From NCBI RefSeq assembly GCF_000314995.1, contig NZ_BAEO01000062.1, positions 372,001 to 436,000 of the forward strand: a stretch of DNA of 64,000 bases, read 5' to 3'. Both the position numbers and the translations under genes were made by a program. The stretch comes from Paraglaciecola arctica BSs20135 (lineage in GTDB: Bacteria > Pseudomonadota > Gammaproteobacteria > Enterobacterales > Alteromonadaceae). This document shows positions 5,044-47,870 of this stretch, piece by piece. Each line of letters opens with the position of its first letter. Position 1 is the stretch's first letter. The notes below the pieces were generated by a model. It ran no database searches. It was not told the DNA's origin and saw only the letters and a list, made by a program, of their open reading frames with translations.

Positions 5044-6516
5044 TTATTCTTCGATAAAACGAATCACGCTTGGGTTTAATTGGGTTTCTAAGCGAGTCAC
5101 AACTGCTGTATTGGTTTTGGTATCAATGATTTCAACTCCAGGTGCCGCATCCTCTTTTACACTTACCCATAAAAAGCCGGCTGCATCAATGTCGATAAAA
5201 CTGATGCTGTTGCTATCAATATCAAGTACCGTCTCATTACTTATTTCGCCTGTGGTGGGATTAAATTGATAAAGTGTCGACTCTTCATGGTATGGGGTAA
5301 AGAACGTTTCATTAGCAAAAAAGTACCCTTTTTCAGCAGAAACAATCGCTGCAGATTGGATGAATTTTGTACTGTTATCTGTAATGTCTGCCGCACTTAA
5401 TACAGTGGTTAAGCTGTAGTCGTTGGTGTTTACGGCTTCGATCATACTTTGGTCTACGCTTGCAGCTGTATAAGAGTTACGACTAGTAATATAGACCTTA
5501 TCTTCGAAGGCTATAACACTGTGTTCTAGCGGGTTTAGGCCAAGTAAAGGAATGCCCATTACGCTATCAGTGGCATCTGCATTGGTTTCAATTTCGCTAT
5601 CGGTTGTGGTATCAAATACGGCTAAATAAGTTGAATTAGTACTTCCGTAAGAATCATCTGAACGCTGCATGACTACAAATAATTTTCCATCGTTGATAGA
5701 GGCAGCTGAAGGCCTTGGTGTGCCAGATGTATTGTTATCAGGCACATAACTGGCTAAGTCCAATTCGCCAATTTTAAAACTCTCAAAGTCAGTGGCTTGT
5801 GGGTTAACAATCCAGATTTTGTCTGAGCCGTAACGTAGCAAATATGCTTTTTCTGCACTCAATGACACTAATGTGTATGGGTTTCGGGTTGTAGAGTCTA
5901 GATCATCTTGTGTTGAATATGACCAGATTTCAGTGCTGGCATCATCTGTATTGTATTTACTGATGGTATCAATAAAATAGCGGCCAATATGGTATACGTC
6001 ACTTTGATAGATACTAATGCTGTAGTCAGATTGTGTTTTTGCATAAAAGCCGTCTTCAACAGTCTGCGATGCATAGTTTAAATAGGCGACTTGTGAACTA
6101 GAATAATCAGCAGCCACAGTTTGCACCAATGCCAATGAAGGTGTATCTAATACATCTCCAACGTTCACTGTTACATCAATTGAATCAGTCAAACCTTCAG
6201 CATCAGTAACTGTAACAGTGAAGTTATAAGGTCCAGTATCGCCACTATCAAAATCAGGAGCGTTAATAAATTCAACTGTACCTGTATTGTCAATGGCAAA
6301 AAGTTGCAGGTCTGAACCTGTGATGCTGTAGGTCAACTCAGTTCCATCGTCAGTTGCAGTGTATTGGCTCACCTCAGTGGTATTTTCTGCCACTGTTACT
6401 AAAACATTGCCGGATAGCTCTGGGGCGTCATTACTGTCGCTACCACATCCACCTAAGATAGATAGAGTAGTGATTAAGCTCAGAGTAAGCGCTGACTTTT
6501 TGAATAGTGTTAACAT
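5044..6516 (-). CDS. Surface lipoprotein, cadherin-like domain plus beta-propeller; candidate BtuG-like protein
   Basis: A 490-residue lipoprotein. The signal peptide ends at the lipobox LSILGGC. Residues about 30-130 form a cadherin-like Ig fold (VTVAENTTEVSQYTATDDG, FTVTVTDAEGLTDSIDVTV). Residues about 130-490 are a string of beta-rich repeats with blade-like units, each ending in a value or label statement (IWIVNPQATDFESF, LAVFDTTTDSEI, LYQFNPTTGEI, VEIIDTKTNTAV), as in YncE/DUF5074-type propellers. The start codon directly abuts the end of btuB, so it is translated from the same riboswitch-controlled message. In Bacteroidetes, BtuG is a surface propeller lipoprotein that captures B12 and caps BtuB. 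A comparable role here is an inference from architecture and position. Confidence 0.75.
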   Translation of the reverse strand: MLTLFKKSALTLSLITTLSILGGCGSDSNDAPELSGNVLVTVAENTTEVSQYTATDDGTELTYSITGSDLQLFAIDNTGTVEFINAPDFDSGDTGPYNFTVTVTDAEGLTDSIDVTVNVGDVLDTPSLALVQTVAADYSSSQVAYLNYASQTVEDGFYAKTQSDYSISIYQSDVYHIGRYFIDTISKYNTDDASTEIWSYSTQDDLDSTTRNPYTLVSLSAEKAYLLRYGSDKIWIVNPQATDFESFKIGELDLASYVPDNNTSGTPRPSAASINDGKLFVVMQRSDDSYGSTNSTYLAVFDTTTDSEIETNADATDSVMGIPLLGLNPLEHSVIAFEDKVYITSRNSYTAASVDQSMIEAVNTNDYSLTTVLSAADITDNSTKFIQSAAIVSAEKGYFFANETFFTPYHEESTLYQFNPTTGEISNETVLDIDSNSISFIDIDAAGFLWVSVKEDAAPGVEIIDTKTNTAVVTRLETQLNPSVIRFIEE

Positions 6517-8529: not shown

Positions 8530-8647
8530 TTCGGCCTCTGAAACGAGGACGTTAGGAATGACGAAACACCACCTAAATGCAAATACACTTAAGTGCGGAA
8601 GTTTCAATACAGTTCCTAGCGCCCACCGCACTATAATTTGTAATATA

Positions 8648-8795
8648 TTGACAGGCCGGTCTCCGGGCTTAACTGATATTCAGTATTACCGTTGCGGGGG
8701 CAGCGTTAGAATTAAACACTAGTGTGTTGCACTAACTTCCCGATTATCTCTTGTTTTTCAACTGATAAAATACAATTGAAAAGAGCACCTGAGCA
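8648..8795 (-). promoter_or_regulatory. Cobalamin riboswitch upstream of btuB
   Basis: The minus strand carries the class I cobalamin-element features in order. AGGTGC lies near the 5' end (about 8787). Then come a GATAATCGGGAAG core, the B12-box part GCTGCCCCCGCAACGGTAA (8686-8704), and the 3' closing segment AAGCCCGGAGACCGGCCTG (about 8652-8670). It ends about 120 bp before the btuB start. A possible expression-platform stem (AGTGCGG / CCGCACT) spans 8592-8632. Binding of adenosylcobalamin would be expected to switch off btuB and the lipoprotein behind it. Confidence 0.92.
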
Positions 8796-8944
8796 ATTTG
8801 AAGACGAGTTTGAGGATGTTTGATTCAAAAGTCAATTCAGTAGAAGGGTTTAGCGAGTTAACACTTATACTAATTGGATCATAGAAAGCACTATTAACAA
8901 GGTAGGAACTCCTAGTAGCCGTTTATCTTTATGTAAGCGCAGTA

Positions 8945-23421: not shown

Positions 23422-23625
23422 TTACTGGCTCGCACTTACGCTTGTATTTAATAGTCAGAAAAACATTCAAAATCAAGATGTTGACTCAAGTGTCACGAGA
23501 AAGGAAACACATCATAAACAGCATAGAAGCGGTTCAAAGATAATGTATCCGTGTGTTCCCGCACGAAAATTTAAAGGTGTCTTTAAGTAAACTCTTTATT
23601 GTAACTGTTTACTGTAAAGGTATAT

Positions 23626-23737
23626 AAGGCTGGTATCTGACTTACGTTTTGATAAACGTTTACAGTTGCGGGTACAGTTTTGGACTTTCACCAAATTCCC
23701 ATTTAGTTTGTGTTGTTGTAAAACGACACTAAACCTT
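23626..23737 (-). promoter_or_regulatory. Cobalamin riboswitch upstream of the cob/btu operon
   Basis: On the minus strand it contains, in order, AATGGGAATTTGGTGAAAGTCC-like core sequence (about 23675-23705), the B12-box part CCCGCAACTGTAAACG (23658-23672) and the closing AAGTCAGATACCAGCC (23628-23643). An upstream stem pairs GGTTTAGTGT with ACACAAACTAA. It lies about 205 bp before btuD and would repress the 13-gene operon when adenosylcobalamin is plentiful. It is a different sequence variant from the one before btuB. Confidence 0.92.
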
Positions 23738-23819
23738 ATTTATATGCGGGCGAATATAGCAAGTAAGTGGATGGGATTCGAGGGGTAATTGTTTTTTATG
23801 CTTTAGTGGGCTCTGTTTT

Positions 23820-23940
23820 TACAAGGTGCTAAAACATGCGCTGGCGCTTACTGCCTTCCTTGGCAGTTTTTACACCGAATCCCTTCGATGCGACTTACTT
23901 TTTGCCAACAGCAGCAAAAAGTAAGCAAAACGTACCTAAG
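23820..23940 (+). repeat. Structured intergenic element, copy 3 (short form)
   Basis: After a CATGCGCTGGCGCTTA lead the element has three hairpins. H1 is ACTGCC-ttcctt-GGCAGT (23850-23867), followed by TTTTT. H2 is CGAA-TCCC-TTCG (23876-23887). H3 is CTTACTTTTTGC / GCAAAAAGTAAG with loop CAACAGCA (23894-23925). The same order of hairpins with other stem sequences is found at 41030-41122 and 41805-41896, and in reverse orientation at 47640-47870. It lies between thiI and the riboswitch of the cob operon. Confidence 0.6.
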
Positions 23941-40200: not shown

Positions 40201-40914
40201 CTTAATAATGTCGAAGACGCAGCCTTGTGGCAGCAAACCCCACAAGATGAAGTCAAAGTAATTCTACAACAGTTACAAACTGAAAAAGACGTGCTTGTAG
40301 AACGCCGAGGTGGCATTAGTAGCCAATTGTCAGCAGACCAAAAAGAAACGTCACGCCAGCAAGCATTACTCGATCAAATCGAACAACAAAAACAAGATTA
40401 TGATCAGCTAAGTTACCTGCACGGCTTAATAGGCTCAGCCAACGGCGACAAATTCCGCCGCTTTGCCCAAGGCTTAACCCTAGATAATTTGGTATACCTA
40501 GCCAACAAACAACTCGATCGCATCCATGGTCGTTATTTGCTTAAACGTAAAGAAGAGCAAGGTCTAGCCCTGACTGTGCTTGATACTTGGCAAGGTGACG
40601 TAGAGCGGGATACCAAAACCTTGTCGGGTGGTGAAAGTTTCTTGGTTAGTCTTGCCTTGGCTTTGGCCTTATCTGACTTAGTCAGCCATAAAACCAGTAT
40701 TGATTCACTGTTTCTTGATGAAGGGTTTGGCACGTTAGATGCTGAAACTTTGGATATCGCTTTAGATGCGCTGGATAACCTAAATGCTTCTGGGAAGATG
40801 ATTGGGGTGATCAGTCATATTGAGGCGATGAAAGAGCGGATACCTACGCAGTTAAGGGTGACTAAGAAGAGTGGGTTGGGGGTGAGTGAGTTGGATCGTG
40901 AGTTTGCGGTTTGA
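37243..40914 (+). CDS. sbcC: Exonuclease SbcCD subunit C
   Basis: A 1223-residue Rad50-type ATPase. Walker A is GPTGAGKTTLLDAI (about residue 39). Two very long Gln/Glu/Leu-rich coiled coils (about 190-560 and 640-1040) flank the zinc hook CPLCGATEHP at about residue 597. The C-terminal half-ATPase carries LSGGESFLVSLALALALSD and Walker B SLFLDEGFGTLD. The protein is longer than the E. coli one (1048) mainly in the coiled coil. The last 90 codons are repeated 771 bp downstream in a fragment (41416-41685). SbcCD targets hairpins, and the region right behind this gene is packed with hairpins. Confidence 0.95.
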   Translation: MKILSIRLKNLNSLKGEWKIDFTQSPFAENGLFAITGPTGAGKTTLLDAICLALYHQTPRLGQITNSSNEIMTRGTSECLAEVEFEVKGTAYRAFWSMRRSRGNADGNLQPADAELAEVATGKVLATQIRQKSEEIEKLTGLDFGRFTKSMMLSQGNFAAFLNADENKRAELLEELTGTEVYGQISVKVHEHHSQAKQRLNELQMGANTFQVLSAEQKQALQDELKQLQDKQSGIEQQITTHSNHMNWWDKQLSAQQSQQAANILNTEAKQAFADAKVELSLLEKSEPAERLRPNWQRLVEVTQQQTKTNEQLAAQQESKAKLQIELTNAADKLSLAEDSLKRSKQAQQSQEQLITEQVMPLDSQISALTEKHSDKQQTIRQLQQQQQESATKLQDLQVALTGLNEQHSLAQNYLTEHAADSAVGEQLSGWSASLAQLERDSQTAQTLQKQTLSIDSQLNENNKVKQQLQGQWQNLSERLKQQQAELAEKESQYQALTLESDVTSLENHLAAINLRWPELHSAKEIQRRYLQLDKDKTTNQSELQTSQPQAEELRAQRNTLLQKYQEQAQHCKDLQQLVSQEEQLAQYRQLLKADQECPLCGATEHPKSSEMAIDIPETVTRKHQAETLLNQLEQDGKAVREKLDSLELKINQLQSHLAELNTLETELSALWQGRVETLQLDFAISDQQSMQAFEQGMQNQSEQLSKQLKQLSQLDKERQTNKEALNITEREGDKLNSELKLLDQSQQSLQQSSQKTSQEYATLIESVDKNRKALIANIVALGYIAPPENELLQWLQSKRQDVQVFQQKTHQKEQLSQQVAVKSAEHAAIEQQLLGLYEQVISMQLEEVTLKQQWEEATKQRQQLFGDKTVLQARAEANKQLDSAEQTNQSASLIHKNIAQQDNDLLAAIKAKQQQQTELELLLKERTENWHELLTNSPFVNQAEFEMALLPEEQRNHLISVKQKLDTQLQRANTLLEQSATQLNELNNVEDAALWQQTPQDEVKVILQQLQTEKDVLVERRGGISSQLSADQKETSRQQALLDQIEQQKQDYDQLSYLHGLIGSANGDKFRRFAQGLTLDNLVYLANKQLDRIHGRYLLKRKEEQGLALTVLDTWQGDVERDTKTLSGGESFLVSLALALALSDLVSHKTSIDSLFLDEGFGTLDAETLDIALDALDNLNASGKMIGVISHIEAMKERIPTQLRVTKKSGLGVSELDREFAV

Positions 40915-41415
40915 TTGTGGTTTACAGCGTGATTCCATCACTCCGTAACTCCGTCATTCCGTCACACCGACATTCCGTGACTCCCCCACACCGTCATTCC
41001 GGTAGTCTTTTGGGCCGGAATCTCCTTGTTTATAATGCGCTGCGCTTACCTGCATCAATGCAGTTTTTCGATTGGCATCCCTGCCAAACGACCATACTTT
41101 TTTTCTACAGCCAAAAAAAGTAGGCAAAAAAGGCCGCTCGAGGGCAATGCTCTTCATCCAACTATTGCTTCAATTTAGCAGGTCGCGCTGAGCCGTTCCC
41201 GACGGCGCACCGCTCAATCGCCTGTCCATGGCGATTGACCTACCAAATTGAAGCAATAGTTGGCGAGCCTTGAGTCGAGGGTAAGTCAAAAGCATCGGCT
41301 TCGCCGACAACAACTGTGGTGGCTACGCCACTGCTTTTCCGCAGTACCATTTTCCGTAGTGTATTGATTTAATTATGCTTTATCGTTTTTGTTACAGTGG
41401 GTGTCTTGATAAGCG
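40645..41415 (+). repeat. Tandem duplication, unit 1 (sbcC tail plus downstream element)
   Basis: The segment from codon GTT-AGT of sbcC through the non-coding block is repeated with a period of 771 bp. The sbcC tail and the first 110 bp after the stop are very similar in both units. The middle (about 41020-41300) is much more different in sequence but keeps the same order of hairpins. The right end (GTGTCTTGATAAGCGG, 41401-41416) directly meets unit 2. Confidence 0.85.
40970..41360 (+). repeat. Structured intergenic element, copy 1 (long form)
   Basis: The hairpins in order are: ATTCCGG/CCGGAAT (about 40995-41023); H1 CTGCAT-ca-ATGCAG (41050-41063) followed by TTTTT; H2 TTGGCA-TCCC-TGCCAA (41072-41087); H3 TACTTTTTTT/AAAAAAAGTA with loop CTACAGCC (41095-41122). 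Next is a branched structure closed by a perfect 19-bp stem (41158-41176 with 41245-41263), with two inner arms whose loops are TTCCCGA and TGTCCAT. It ends with ATCGGC-ttc-GCCGA and GTGGC-tac-GCCAC. There is no ORF and no transposase. Confidence 0.75.
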
Positions 41416-41685
41416 GTTAGCCTTGCGCTTGCTTTGGCGTTGTCTGACTTAGTTAGTCATAAAACCAGTATTGATTCGCTGTTCCTAGATGAAGGGTTTG
41501 GGACTTTGGATGCTGAGACTTTGGATATCGCTTTAGATGCGCTGGATAACCTTAATGCTTCTGGCAAGATGATTGGGGTGATTAGTCATATTGAGGCGAT
41601 GAAGGAACGTATTCCTACGCAGTTGCGGGTGACTAAGAAGAGTGGGTTGGGGGTGAGTGAGTTGGATCGTGAATTTGCGGTTTGA
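41416..41685 (+). pseudogene. Duplicated C-terminal fragment of sbcC
   Basis: This fragment has ninety codons including the stop. Counting from GTT at 41416 the encoded residues are identical to the end of SbcC (VSLALALALSD to ELDREFAV). About two dozen base differences separate it from the parent segment (40645-40914), and all that I could align are synonymous. It holds Walker B but lacks Walker A, the hook and the signature Gly pair, so it cannot be a working SbcC. A TTG at 41434 could start an 83-residue peptide, but there is no ribosome-binding site. It is a remnant, either of a duplication followed by exchange or of an incoming allele. Confidence 0.85.
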
Positions 41686-41739
41686 TTGTGGTTTACAGCG
41701 TGAAGCCGTCACTCCGTAACTCCGTCATTCCGTCACACC

Positions 41740-42150
41740 GACATTCCGTGACTCCCCCACACCGTCATTCCGGTAGTCTTTTGGGCCGGAATCCCTTTTC
41801 TTTAAAAGCATGCGCTGCGCTTACGTCATTCATGACGTTTTTCGATTGGCATCCCTGCCAAGCGACCATACTTTTTTTCTACAGCCAAAAAAAGTAGGCA
41901 AAAAAGGCCGCTCGCCAACTATGTTCTTCATCCGACTATCAGGCAAATTTAGTGGGTCGCTTGTACTCGTTCCCGACGAGGACAAGCTCAATTTGCGTCC
42001 TTGCAAATTGCCCCACTAAATTCACCAGATAGCCGGCGAACATAAATGCGAGGGTAAATCAAAAGATAAAAAAATCGGCTTCGCCGACACCACTTTGGTG
42101 GCTACGCTACTGCTTTTTCCGCAGTACCATCTTCCATAGTGTATTGATTT
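41740..42150 (+). repeat. Structured intergenic element, copy 2 (long form)
   Basis: The architecture is the same as in copy 1. H1 is ACGTCAT-tc-ATGACGT (41823-41838) followed by TTTTT; H2 is TTGGCA-TCCC-TGCCAA (41846-41861); H3 is TACTTTTTTT/AAAAAAAGTA (41869-41896). The branched part is closed by CCGACTATCAGG.. / ..CCAGATAGCCGG (imperfect, about 41932-42037). Its inner arms are GCTTGTaCTCG-TTCCCGA-CGAGgACAAGC and CAATTTGC-gtcctt-GCAAATTG. The stems differ from copy 1 while the loops TTCCCGA and GTCC are kept. It ends with ATCGGC-ttc-GCCGA and a GTGGCTACGC(T)AC hairpin. Confidence 0.75.
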
Positions 42151-42180
42151 TATTATGCTTTATCGTTTTTGTTACAGTGG

Positions 42181-42230
42181 GTGTCTTGATAAGCGGGGCA
42201 TTGATAAGCGGGGCATCTTGATAAGCGGGG
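42181..42230 (+). repeat. Short tandem repeat of GATAAGCGG units
   Basis: Three consecutive units end in TTGATAAGCGG: GTGTCTTGATAAGCGG, GGCATTGATAAGCGG and GGCATCTTGATAAGCGG. The first matches the right end of duplication unit 1 at 41401-41416. Array growth at this boundary suggests slippage or recombination. Confidence 0.75.
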
Positions 42231-42505
42231 CAAGAGCATCGGCGTTGCCGACTAAAGGGTTGCTTCGCAATTAATTATCATGGATGTCCTGTTAATTCGC
42301 TGTTAATTCGACATATTTAAAGCTACTTTGCTTGATAGTGAGAAATATTACTTTTTATTGGCAGAAGCAAGGAATATTGTCCGCGAAAAATAAAACAATA
42401 TGCAACAAGGGGGCAGCTAAATTGATTTGTTTTTGACTCCATCATAGATGAGTTTAATAATGGAGAATTAGAAGACACCAACATAAAAATTGAAGGGCTT
42501 GATTT

Positions 42506-43375
42506 ATGCACACTATAACGCTGGATGCGAAAATAGATAAAACAGCATGGCAAACCGATGATAAAATTTGGGCTAAACAGCGCCTGCAGCAGTGGAAAAA
42601 GCTCAGTAGCGCGTTACGAAAAGAAGGTGCTTTGCTTCCTAAAGATGTGAAATATTACAAACATTATTTTTTAACAGGACACATTATTAAAGACGGTATT
42701 GAATTCGATTTTGCACCAACTCTTAATGCCGTAATATTTATGATGTTTCATCCAGATCAATCAGCAGAAAATTTATTAACTATTTATACGCAATATACCA
42801 CCGTTTATAGAAAAGACCGCTGTGATAATAGCGCTAGGTATTTTACGCGTGAAATTGCAGGGCATTATTTTGGTGAAAACGGTATTTTAAACGGTATTTT
42901 AAACGGTAATGAGGCGCTATATTGCCAAATTTTATTTGGTGACTCAAAGGCAGAGTTTGCGAAGTTGCATATGATAAAAGACTATACCGCCTTTCGTGGT
43001 TATTGCCAGGAACTCATCCCATTTTTACTTGATAGTCAAAGTTACATTCATCATTATAAACAGTATTTAACTGATTTTTATTTTTGTACGAGTCGTAAAA
43101 CCGATTATACAGTAACAGCTAAAGTGAGAGAGGTTAATTTTTTCCTACGGATTATTGCATATTATGAGTTATTAGACCCATTTAAAGGGACTGACGAATT
43201 ACATTATAAACGCGCATGGATATTGGTTAATAAGGTACGTGAAAAATTAACAGAGCCTGATTTACCTGAAGCTTTGCTTGAGCTTTGGGAAAGTGCTCAA
43301 ACGGTGGAAGGCAAGCAGCAATTATTTGAAAAAATTGAAGATAAATACCCCTCATTACAAATATTATCAGCGTAA
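42506..43375 (+). CDS. Hypothetical protein of unknown family
   Basis: A 289-residue protein without signal peptide or membrane segment. It is mostly helical and rich in Lys, Tyr and Phe (KYYKHYFLTGHIIKDG, YIHHYKQYLTDFYFC, VNFFLRIIAYYELLDPF). A short in-frame duplication gives GILNGILNG (15 bases repeated near 42885-42905). The base composition is more AT-rich than in sbcC and radD, which may hint at later arrival. The gene lies just behind the duplicated repeat block and alone on its strand. No ribosome-binding site stronger than GAAGGGC is seen. No family was recognised and no function is proposed. Confidence 0.65.
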   Translation: MHTITLDAKIDKTAWQTDDKIWAKQRLQQWKKLSSALRKEGALLPKDVKYYKHYFLTGHIIKDGIEFDFAPTLNAVIFMMFHPDQSAENLLTIYTQYTTVYRKDRCDNSARYFTREIAGHYFGENGILNGILNGNEALYCQILFGDSKAEFAKLHMIKDYTAFRGYCQELIPFLLDSQSYIHHYKQYLTDFYFCTSRKTDYTVTAKVREVNFFLRIIAYYELLDPFKGTDELHYKRAWILVNKVREKLTEPDLPEALLELWESAQTVEGKQQLFEKIEDKYPSLQILSA

Positions 43376-47636: not shown

Positions 47637-47870
47637 GTGGCTCAGCCACTGCTTTTTCCGCAATTAGGAACTTTAGCAGCGAGCGGCTTTTCTTGGTTAC
47701 TTCTTTTGGCTGTTCCATATTTACGGGATAAATATGGAACAGCTTTAGCTGGCCGGTAAGATTAACTGCATGGACGCATTTAATAAAAAGAAGTAACTGG
47801 TTCGAAGGGATTCGAGATAAAAACCATCAGGACGATGACGCGCAGCGTGCTCCGGTTTTTATTCGCTGTT
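47637..47870 (-). repeat. Structured intergenic element, copy 4 (reverse orientation)
   Basis: Reading the minus strand, H1 is CATC-gtcct-GATG (47824-47836) followed by TTTTT. H2 is TCGAA-TCCC-TTCGA (47802-47815). H3 is GTTACTTCTTTT / AAAAGAAGTAAC (47786-47797 with 47696-47707), here holding an inserted perfect 13-bp hairpin (47711-47723 with 47729-47741, loop cggga on the plus strand). After that comes AAGCCGCTCG and a GTGGC-TGA-GCCAC hairpin, as at the right ends of copies 1 and 2. It lies between two convergent genes. Confidence 0.65.

Follow-up and report, generated by a model that had tools for sequence, protein, structure and literature searches.

What kind of sequence lies repeated between the genes of Paraglaciecola arctica BSs20135, with stems that differ from copy to copy around a fold that stays the same? 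The question arose in a stretch of 64,000 nucleotides of this genome (contig NZ_BAEO01000062.1, positions 372,001 to 436,000; the window), in which an earlier note had pointed out four copies of an element carrying the hairpins H1, H2, and H3. We recovered all four in the window, with these hairpins as described, and refer to them as copies A to D (Table 1). Our best reading, which we hold with modest confidence, is that the element belongs to the mobile type of interspersed repeat, and that the minus strand of copies A to C encodes a structured RNA made up of an H4 domain that resembles the Rfam family TwoAYGGAY, a triple-helix pseudoknot, the hairpins H2 and H1, and an end hairpin.

A dispersed repeat family in Paraglaciecola

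The element has a core of about 255 bp, and the family extends beyond the window. With copy A as the query, there were 35 matches at E ≤ 0.001 in the source genome (5,964,456 bases in 72 contigs). The same query found matches, some of them weak, in 20 of 22 Paraglaciecola genomes, the source genome included, and in none of 18 genomes outside Paraglaciecola at that same sensitivity. Iterated profile searches over the window and 80 fetched regions yielded 129 non-overlapping matches, of which 88 span more than 80% of the model and 69 pass a stricter length filter. Several copies are arranged as inverted neighbouring pairs, and incomplete copies include fragments that retain only the left end, right-end fragments, and internally split copies. 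Copies A and B belong to a tandem duplication, repeating every 770 bp or so, that includes the tail of sbcC as well (positions 41415-41731 match 40644-40960 at 91%), and they are therefore not independent insertions. Despite near-identical flanks, the two copies show compensated differences in several stems.

In plus-strand order, copies A and B consist of H0, H1 followed by T, H2, H3, an A-rich linker, GCCGC, and H4, which contains the inner hairpins H5 and H6. A REP-like doublet (TCGGCTTCGCCGA and GTGGCTACGCCAC) follows H4 in many copies. The earlier inventory was right for H1 to H3 but lacked H4, the largest domain; other parts that it did not include are H0 before H1, a pairing between the H3 loop and the linker, and the optional REP-like doublet. 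Across copies, the stems are variable and the loops and linkers conserved. In copy D, the H3 loop carries an insertion that amounts to an extra hairpin (47709-47743), and by eye the linker mirrors the arm with a G at the third position. When the window was scanned against Rfam, two cobalamin riboswitches came up, and the neighbourhood of the element gave no more than a sub-threshold match.

Table 1. Parts of the four copies of the element in the window (positions are those of the window).
Feature	Position	Strand	Remarks
Copy A, full-length core	41033-41289	- (taken as the folded strand)	Top row of alignment A1
Copy A, H4 domain, TwoAYGGAY-like	41136-41281	-	Long stem enclosing two hairpins, 41184-41212 and 41213-41238; RF01731 matches this domain in other copies
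Copy A, pseudoknot stem S1, RNA 5' strand	41132-41137	-	Plus strand GGCCGC; partner is the hairpin loop 41105-41112
Copy A, U-rich third strand L1	41123-41131	-	Plus strand GGCAAAAAA; mirrors the arm 41113-41122
Copy A, H3, predicted triple-helix stem	41095-41122	-	Arms 41095-41104 and 41113-41122, loop CTACAGCC
Copy A, H2 hairpin	41069-41090	-	RNA-strand loop AGGGAT (ANGGAN)
Copy A, H1 hairpin	41050-41063	-	Loop with TGA in place of GGA
Copy A, H0, small hairpin	41035-41049	-	Left end of the element
Copy A, optional REP-like doublet	41295-41334		TCGGCTTCGCCGA and GTGGTGGCTACGCCACTGC; right end
Copy B, full-length core	41808-42062	-	H0 41810-41824, H1 41823-41838, H2 41843-41864
Copy B, H3 to H4	H3 arms 41869-41878 and 41887-41896; L1 41897-41905; S1 41906-41911; H4 41910-42054	-	
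Copy C, truncated after H3	23836-23930	-	H0 to H3 present, without S1 partner and H4; adjoins the end of thiI
Copy D, inverted	47664-47847	+	H1 47825-47837, H2 47799-47816, H3 arms 47786-47796 and 47697-47707, linker 47680-47696
Duplicated stretch with sbcC tail, between copies A and B	41415-41731	+	

Covariation and the folded strand

We aligned 34 non-redundant copies (alignment A1), four of 38 with another type of H4 having been dropped beforehand. In this alignment, 94.6% of the cells pair, compared with 74.8% after shuffling; 488 cells carry double changes (146 shuffled), and 50 of the 71 pairs change on both sides. The covariation score was 0.571, against 0.192 in shuffled alignments and at most 0.096 when the partner was slid by one to three columns, and none of 500 shuffles reached the alignment in any of five covariation measures. 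The central claim of the earlier note, that the fold and not the sequence is kept, is thus borne out above both column shuffles and slid controls, and the conserved, covarying fold is consistent with the structural RNA to which it had likened the element.

The strand on which the note had drawn the hairpins is another matter, as the opposite one is probably the one to read, at least for H4. When mismatches within ungapped stems were counted on the plus strand of 69 copies under a strand-symmetric rule, there were 88 A.C and only 6 G.T, with 51 copies richer in A.C and two richer in G.T; for 38 non-redundant copies, the test gave 48 A.C mismatches against 2 G.T. One conserved column supplies 36 of the 88 A.C; leaving it out brings the count to 52 against 6. 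An A.C on the plus strand reads as G.U on its complement, and it is therefore the fold of the reverse strand that tolerates RNA wobble. The bias comes mainly from the long H4 stem. A count over alignment columns was weaker (143 A.C against 89 G.T, sign test p = 0.027) and left H2, H3, the outer H4 stem, and H6 with little or no strand bias, and the same kind of count in other lineages gave only 8 against 4. In stem S1, a reverse-strand G.U is retained in 33 of the 34 copies. The minimum free energy was lower for the reverse strand in all 28 elements of other lineages that were compared (29 loci were supplied, one of them without a strict match), although these are raw values without a shuffle baseline and only indicative. 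An anti-Shine-Dalgarno role for the UCCC loops of the plus strand was set aside because the wobble bias and the Rfam model RF01731 (see below) point to the other strand.

A predicted triple-helix pseudoknot

H3 had been described as a plain hairpin, and its stem is indeed present, but it is better read as part of a larger structure. In our best reading, H3 and the A-rich linker fit an H-type pseudoknot that contains a triple helix in its major groove: a third strand of U and C on the reverse strand is predicted to lie parallel to the purine strand and to form U.A-U and C+.G-C triples. On the plus strand, known pseudoknot geometry would take the linker across the minor groove, where mirroring of the arm is unnecessary. 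Single-stranded DNA could form the equivalent T.A-T and C+.G-C triples.

The main evidence is a match between the purine arm and the linker. The patterns with which H3 was found fixed the arm ends and demanded purines, leaving three arm and five linker positions free to be A or G. The first five positions of the arm are mirrored identically in the linker in all 75 distinct H3s found in this way (two of 77 hairpins, with short stems, were left out), whereas shuffling of the three free positions gave a mean of 25.4, and none of 20,000 shuffles reached 75. In 32 of these H3s the mirrored positions hold only A, and in the others a G occupies one of three positions (27, 11, and 5). All four patterns occur within Paraglaciecola, so that each switch required three matching changes, and 18 other groups follow the same rule. 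It also holds at all 26 places listed from a phylum-wide scan with a freer pattern and at all 34 places listed in a further pattern scan. When the linker was left unconstrained by the pattern, 49 of 68 anchored core copies matched at five of five positions and 11 had a mismatch (one of them had lost the linker); the remaining eight were mis-anchored by the script, and seven of these fit by eye. By position, 299 of 340 agree, compared with 267.4 after shuffling (none of 5000 shuffles reached this), and of the correctly anchored copies with a G, 14 of 18 match the mirror and four do not.

The H-type topology also calls for pairing of the hairpin loop. The H3 loop is complementary to bases beyond the A-rich linker, for example TGGC with GCCA in genome G151, TGTC with GACA in G138, and CTTGAT with ATCAAG and TGCC with GGCA in Ilyobacter. 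Over 56 distinct combinations of loop and linker, the longest complementary run averaged 3.16 with Watson-Crick pairs only (2.66 shuffled) and 5.23 with A.C, the reverse-strand G.U, allowed (4.24 shuffled); neither mean was reached in 2000 shuffles, and single combinations without a run above 2 exist. In alignment A1, 97.5% of the cells in which the loop faces the strand before L1 (helix 6) are paired, G.U counted.

These observations bear on the idea that the covariation is a by-product of copying, through templated palindrome repair or exchange between copies, without any selection on RNA. The tandem copies A and B, with differing stems inside near-identical flanks, would suit such a process, as would a copy at sbcC in genome G017 in which H1 is, by eye, built of two unlike arms. 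Palindrome repair, however, does not account for a linker that mirrors the arm in 75 of 75 cases, nor for the loop-linker pairing, the conserved loops, and the imbalance between A.C and G.T, and we consider this explanation extremely improbable.

The H4 domain and TwoAYGGAY

The model RF01731 (TwoAYGGAY) matches the reverse strand of H4 in genome G125 with 47.5 and 46.0 bits, above its cut-off of 43. The best score for H4 in the source genome was 41.4 bits against this cut-off, among seven loci scanned, and a genome-wide search of the source genome returned no match at E ≤ 0.1. Across 22 genomes, eight had matches at E ≤ 0.1 and five had matches above the cut-off, namely G125 (30 matches), G048 (29), G552 (13), and the two Paraglaciecola among the five, G011 (15) and G003 (11); none of 14 control genomes matched. 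A total of 111 matches were counted, 30 of which came with their loci. Downstream of many matches there is a pyrimidine linker and a hairpin, in new registers and with different stem bases. A strict, sequence-blind pseudoknot finder was positive after 15 of the 30 RF01731 loci, compared with 5 of 438 control windows and none of the 30 on the opposite strand; it was positive at none of four loci in genome G311.

On the RNA strand, H4 resembles TwoAYGGAY in having two GGA-loop hairpins within a longer stem, whereas the region of the RF01731 model covers H4 only, without the pseudoknot or H2 to H0. In the parts of the literature consulted, TwoAYGGAY is presented as a probable RNA from the human gut, gamma-proteobacteria, and Clostridiales (PMC2864571), CsrA binding is predicted for it (PMC4333381), and extra helix pairs have been noted (PMC7657543; PMC11701678); the consulted parts of these four descriptions mention neither dispersed repeats nor a triple helix. 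H4 seems to belong to TwoAYGGAY or to be closely related to it, with the copies of the source genome scoring below the cut-off; this is one part of an overall reading that we find somewhat probable. If it is true, TwoAYGGAY, a candidate RNA family, would be one domain of a larger dispersed-repeat RNA, which would bear on its frequent recurrence in some genomes (30 matches in G125 and 29 in G048) and on the strand to study.

CsrA-type loops

A csrA match was found in 20 of 22 genomes, the exceptions being G650 and a Bacteroidales metagenome-assembled genome (MAG) of unstated completeness. With double-counted elements removed, 44 of 103 RNA-strand H4 loops over 13 groups with csrA contain GGA, including 12 of 18 in Paraglaciecola (six distinct elements), 13 of 21 in G125, and 6 of 11 in G048. 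In the genomes without csrA there was none in 17 (0 of 10 in G650 and 0 of 7 in the Bacteroidales MAG, from two elements each). The motif can also be scarce despite csrA, as in G171 (0 of 4), G176 (0 of 4), G280 (0 of 5), G311 (0 of 3), and G151 (2 of 12), and few loops have it in two groups that lie outside the csrA comparison, Ilyobacter (1 of 13) and Caballeronia (1 of 10). The loops of H2 and H1 are often ANGGAN as well; in copy B, by eye, GGA is present on the RNA strand in H2, H5, and H6, and H1 is without it.

Plausibly, the RNA binds CsrA where CsrA exists. Because the pseudoknot persists in two genomes that are free of csrA, CsrA cannot explain the pseudoknot. It fits these two genomes, with four elements, that CsrA binding would be an added, host-dependent property of H4 rather than the reason for the pseudoknot. 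TwoAYGGAY shares the Rfam clan CL00106 with RsmW, and we take CsrB and RsmZ to belong to this clan too. The element resembles CsrB/CsrC and RsmX/Y/Z in that each molecule has several hairpins whose loops read A(N)GGA. Those RNAs are single dedicated genes, whereas the element is dispersed, multi-copy, and equipped with a predicted triple-helix pseudoknot, and its CsrA binding is predicted only. If the prediction is true, the many repeat copies with CsrA-type loops would form a link between genome parasites and a global regulator. CsrA-related small RNAs of Alcanivorax were also considered and, judging from the consulted part of their description, are unrelated to the element (PMC9788540).

Distribution beyond Paraglaciecola

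The predicted triple-helix module recurs in other gamma- and beta-proteobacteria, on a plasmid of Fusobacteriota, and in a Bacteroidales MAG. The strict H3 pattern matched in 12 of 369 gammaproteobacterial genomes, the source genome included (12 of 272 genera), and the reversed pattern had no match in the same 369 genomes; a freer pattern matched in 6 of 299 genomes of the phylum, again with the source genome, and its reverse in none. A pattern for the linker found 22 stretches, 14 of them in Paraglaciecola, seven in one Bacteroidales MAG, and one in an Oleispira MAG. The Oleispira place is a full-length element near the Paraglaciecola type, and the seven Bacteroidales copies have flanking repeats of their own. 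As both records are MAGs, binning errors are possible there. On plasmid records, the H3 module was found seven times in Ilyobacter (Fusobacteriota) and three times in Caballeronia. Searches of plasmid and phage collections with a Paraglaciecola copy and with a G048 copy gave no match, and neither did a pattern scan of the collection viral_contigs.

Movement, neighbouring genes, and transposases

Comparison of orthologous sites suggests, as our best reading, that the element is gained and lost between species. At the sbcC end, 8 of 14 fetched stretches from other species contain a profile match and six do not: G017 has an element directly behind sbcC, G020 has a partial match about 1 kb further on, and G001 has, by eye, H0 to H2 and then unrelated sequence. 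Gene names at the other sites are our reading of the open reading frames. At a queC-side site (L036), no fetched relative locus had a profile match, and G001 and G015 retain the neighbouring terminator. At an rluB-type site, the element is shared with G018, fragments lie nearby in G017 and G001, and G004, G015, and G020 gave no match; at a leuA-type site, a truncated copy is present in G015 and there is none in G004. Empty sites were thus found, with intergenic divergence hiding the exact element ends and any target duplications.

Such presence and absence at orthologous sites would be expected if the RNA were itself a transposition intermediate, that is, a SINE-like bacterial element copied in trans by a reverse transcriptase for whose recognition the fold is needed. 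The RNA-type wobble bias among dispersed copies and the fragments with only the left end also speak for this; right-end fragments and internally split copies are present too, however, and no target-site duplication was established at the sites compared. We consider this course unlikely.

The genes around the element suggest another possibility, that it has been domesticated as a 3'-UTR element for stability or termination and is kept for its neighbours. With crude calls of open reading frames, 34 of 47 upstream genes point the same way as the element's plus strand and 13 the other way, and downstream genes show no preference (23 against 22). In copies A and B, H1 with its T-run looks like a terminator when read on the plus strand, in line with such a host function. 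However, only 9 of 67 sense-strand left flanks are terminator-like (5 of 104 control scans), a comparison on which we also rejected terminator-targeted insertion; the strand bias favours the opposite strand, and the sites of the element differ among species. We regard a host function of this kind as very unlikely. Because upstream genes lie mostly along the plus strand, read-through would often make the strand that is not the RNA. On the RNA strand, a terminator-like hairpin lies just before H4 in copies A and B. A promoter search of positions 40900-42500 found three candidates where 2.0 were expected, none above chance.

No transposase had been seen beside the copies, and this stands for the nine open reading frames of the window that were scanned against NCBIfam, of which eight matched other families and that at 42506-43375 matched none. 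The genome as a whole does have five matches to Y1 transposases (Y1_Tnp), a group that includes the REP-associated enzymes for which a search had been suggested, but we did not meet a linked RAYT flanked by repeats of the element. When the five loci were fetched, only one (L052) had an element fragment, on one side, and the flanks of the three loci inspected by eye (L050, L051, and L052) carry other repeats.

The Y1 matches are pertinent to the view that the fold is one of single-stranded DNA, in an element of REP or IS200 type with hairpins that a Y1 (HUH) transposase recognises in trans, so that the strand preference would mark the bound DNA strand. G.T pairs and T.A-T triples are possible in DNA, and the inverted neighbouring pairs and the REP-like hairpins at the right end agree with this view as well. 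The fragment at one of five Y1 loci and the other repeats in the three inspected flanks argue against it, as does RF01731, which the consulted descriptions treat as an RNA candidate. A mirrored third-strand pseudoknot and GGA loops also exceed known REP recognition, in which we know of neither feature. On balance, we find a fold of single-stranded DNA improbable.

Proposed role and comparison with known systems

Our preferred reading remains a mobile repeat whose reverse strand is transcribed into RNA. From its 5' end, this RNA would consist of the H4 domain, the H-type pseudoknot, H2, H1, and the small end hairpin. Within the pseudoknot, the U/C linker would lie in the major groove of the A-U-rich stem, forming U.A-U and C+.G-C triples, and the hairpin loop would pair with the strand that precedes the linker. 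Known U-rich triple helices protect RNA from decay, and by likeness the triple helix may do the same here. In hosts with CsrA, the GGA loops may bind the protein, with the RNA acting as a decoy or regulating itself in dependence on CsrA. That dispersed copies are under selection for an RNA fold suggests a part for the RNA in the persistence of the element itself. It is intriguing to consider, although we think it doubtful, that this is a self-propagating bacterial RNA element, in which the RNA locked by a triple helix is the functional and possibly the copied form, often with decoy loops that tie it to a global regulator in CsrA hosts, and which ranges over gamma- and beta-proteobacteria, a Bacteroidales MAG, and a Fusobacteriota plasmid.

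We found no published description of a repeat that combines a triple-helix pseudoknot with CsrA-type hairpins in a search whose scope excluded most subscription papers and outside preprints, and a literature search with sequence words of the element returned no paper. The closest repeats are REP/BIME, RAYT-associated repeats, ERIC, Correia, and other small interspersed elements, which are likewise short, multi-copy, palindromic, and intergenic, and the element has REP-like hairpins at one end. It differs from these repeats in its length of about 255 bp, in a conserved pseudoknot module that occurs in several phyla, and in giving no match at four of five Y1 loci and only a fragment at the fifth.

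For the pseudoknot, the comparison is with telomerase RNA, the SAM-II and preQ1-II riboswitches, and ENE elements, which contain triple-helix pseudoknots or U-rich triple helices. What the element would have in common with them is the H-type topology, with a U-rich L1 that runs alongside the purine strand of an A-U stem in parallel orientation. It differs in that its third strand covaries in register among dispersed bacterial repeats, and we see no ligand, template, or poly(A) partner for it. We know of few natural triple helices with evidence of covariation in register, and it is because the third strand covaries in this way that the predicted triple helix can be read from the sequence alone.

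Tandem and neighbouring copies

The tandem duplication in the window (40644-40960 and 41415-41731) comprises the tail of sbcC, the region downstream of it and the element, the dispersed hairpin repeat. Because the 100 bp preceding the element are near-identical between the two tandem copies while several stems of the element itself differ, with compensation, these sequences hint at exchange between the copies. Elements also lie side by side at L112, L120, L130, L135 and L157, where four of the pairs are arranged head to head, with a spacing of about 9-31 bp, and one is in direct order. At the sbcC end in a more distant species (G006), arrays of small hairpins resembling H0 of the element were seen by eye ahead of it (L193, from about 2020), and the stems of these hairpins differ from one another.

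Inserts, fragments and longer units

Three larger inserts carry further hairpins, some of which, by eye, contain GGA on the plus strand, and these inserts give the impression of nested modules. In the RF01731-rich genome G048, two additional GGA hairpins follow the RF01731 match at L262 and, as judged by eye, appear to be an insertion that separates the pseudoknot strand from the third strand.

Cobalamin riboswitches in the window and larger inserts in the element
Feature	Location	Strand	Remark
Cobalamin riboswitch	window 8637-8807	minus	above Rfam cut-off
Cobalamin riboswitch	window 23611-23748	minus	above Rfam cut-off
Larger insert in H4 or H3 loop	L183 2370-2448 (G017, sbcC site)		further hairpins, by eye
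Larger insert in H4 or H3 loop	L054 about 5510-5640		further hairpins, by eye
Larger insert in H4 or H3 loop	window 47709-47743		further hairpins, by eye

In a Bacteroidales MAG (L057, L058, L059, L066, L069 and L074), the module forms part of a larger unit that is itself repeated; at L059 the H4 portion is missing between two GCTAA motifs. At L052, a fragment of the element (2395-2491) sits immediately after a gene for a Y1 (RAYT-like) transposase, and this gene is itself flanked by a GGGGTCAGAG-type repeat.
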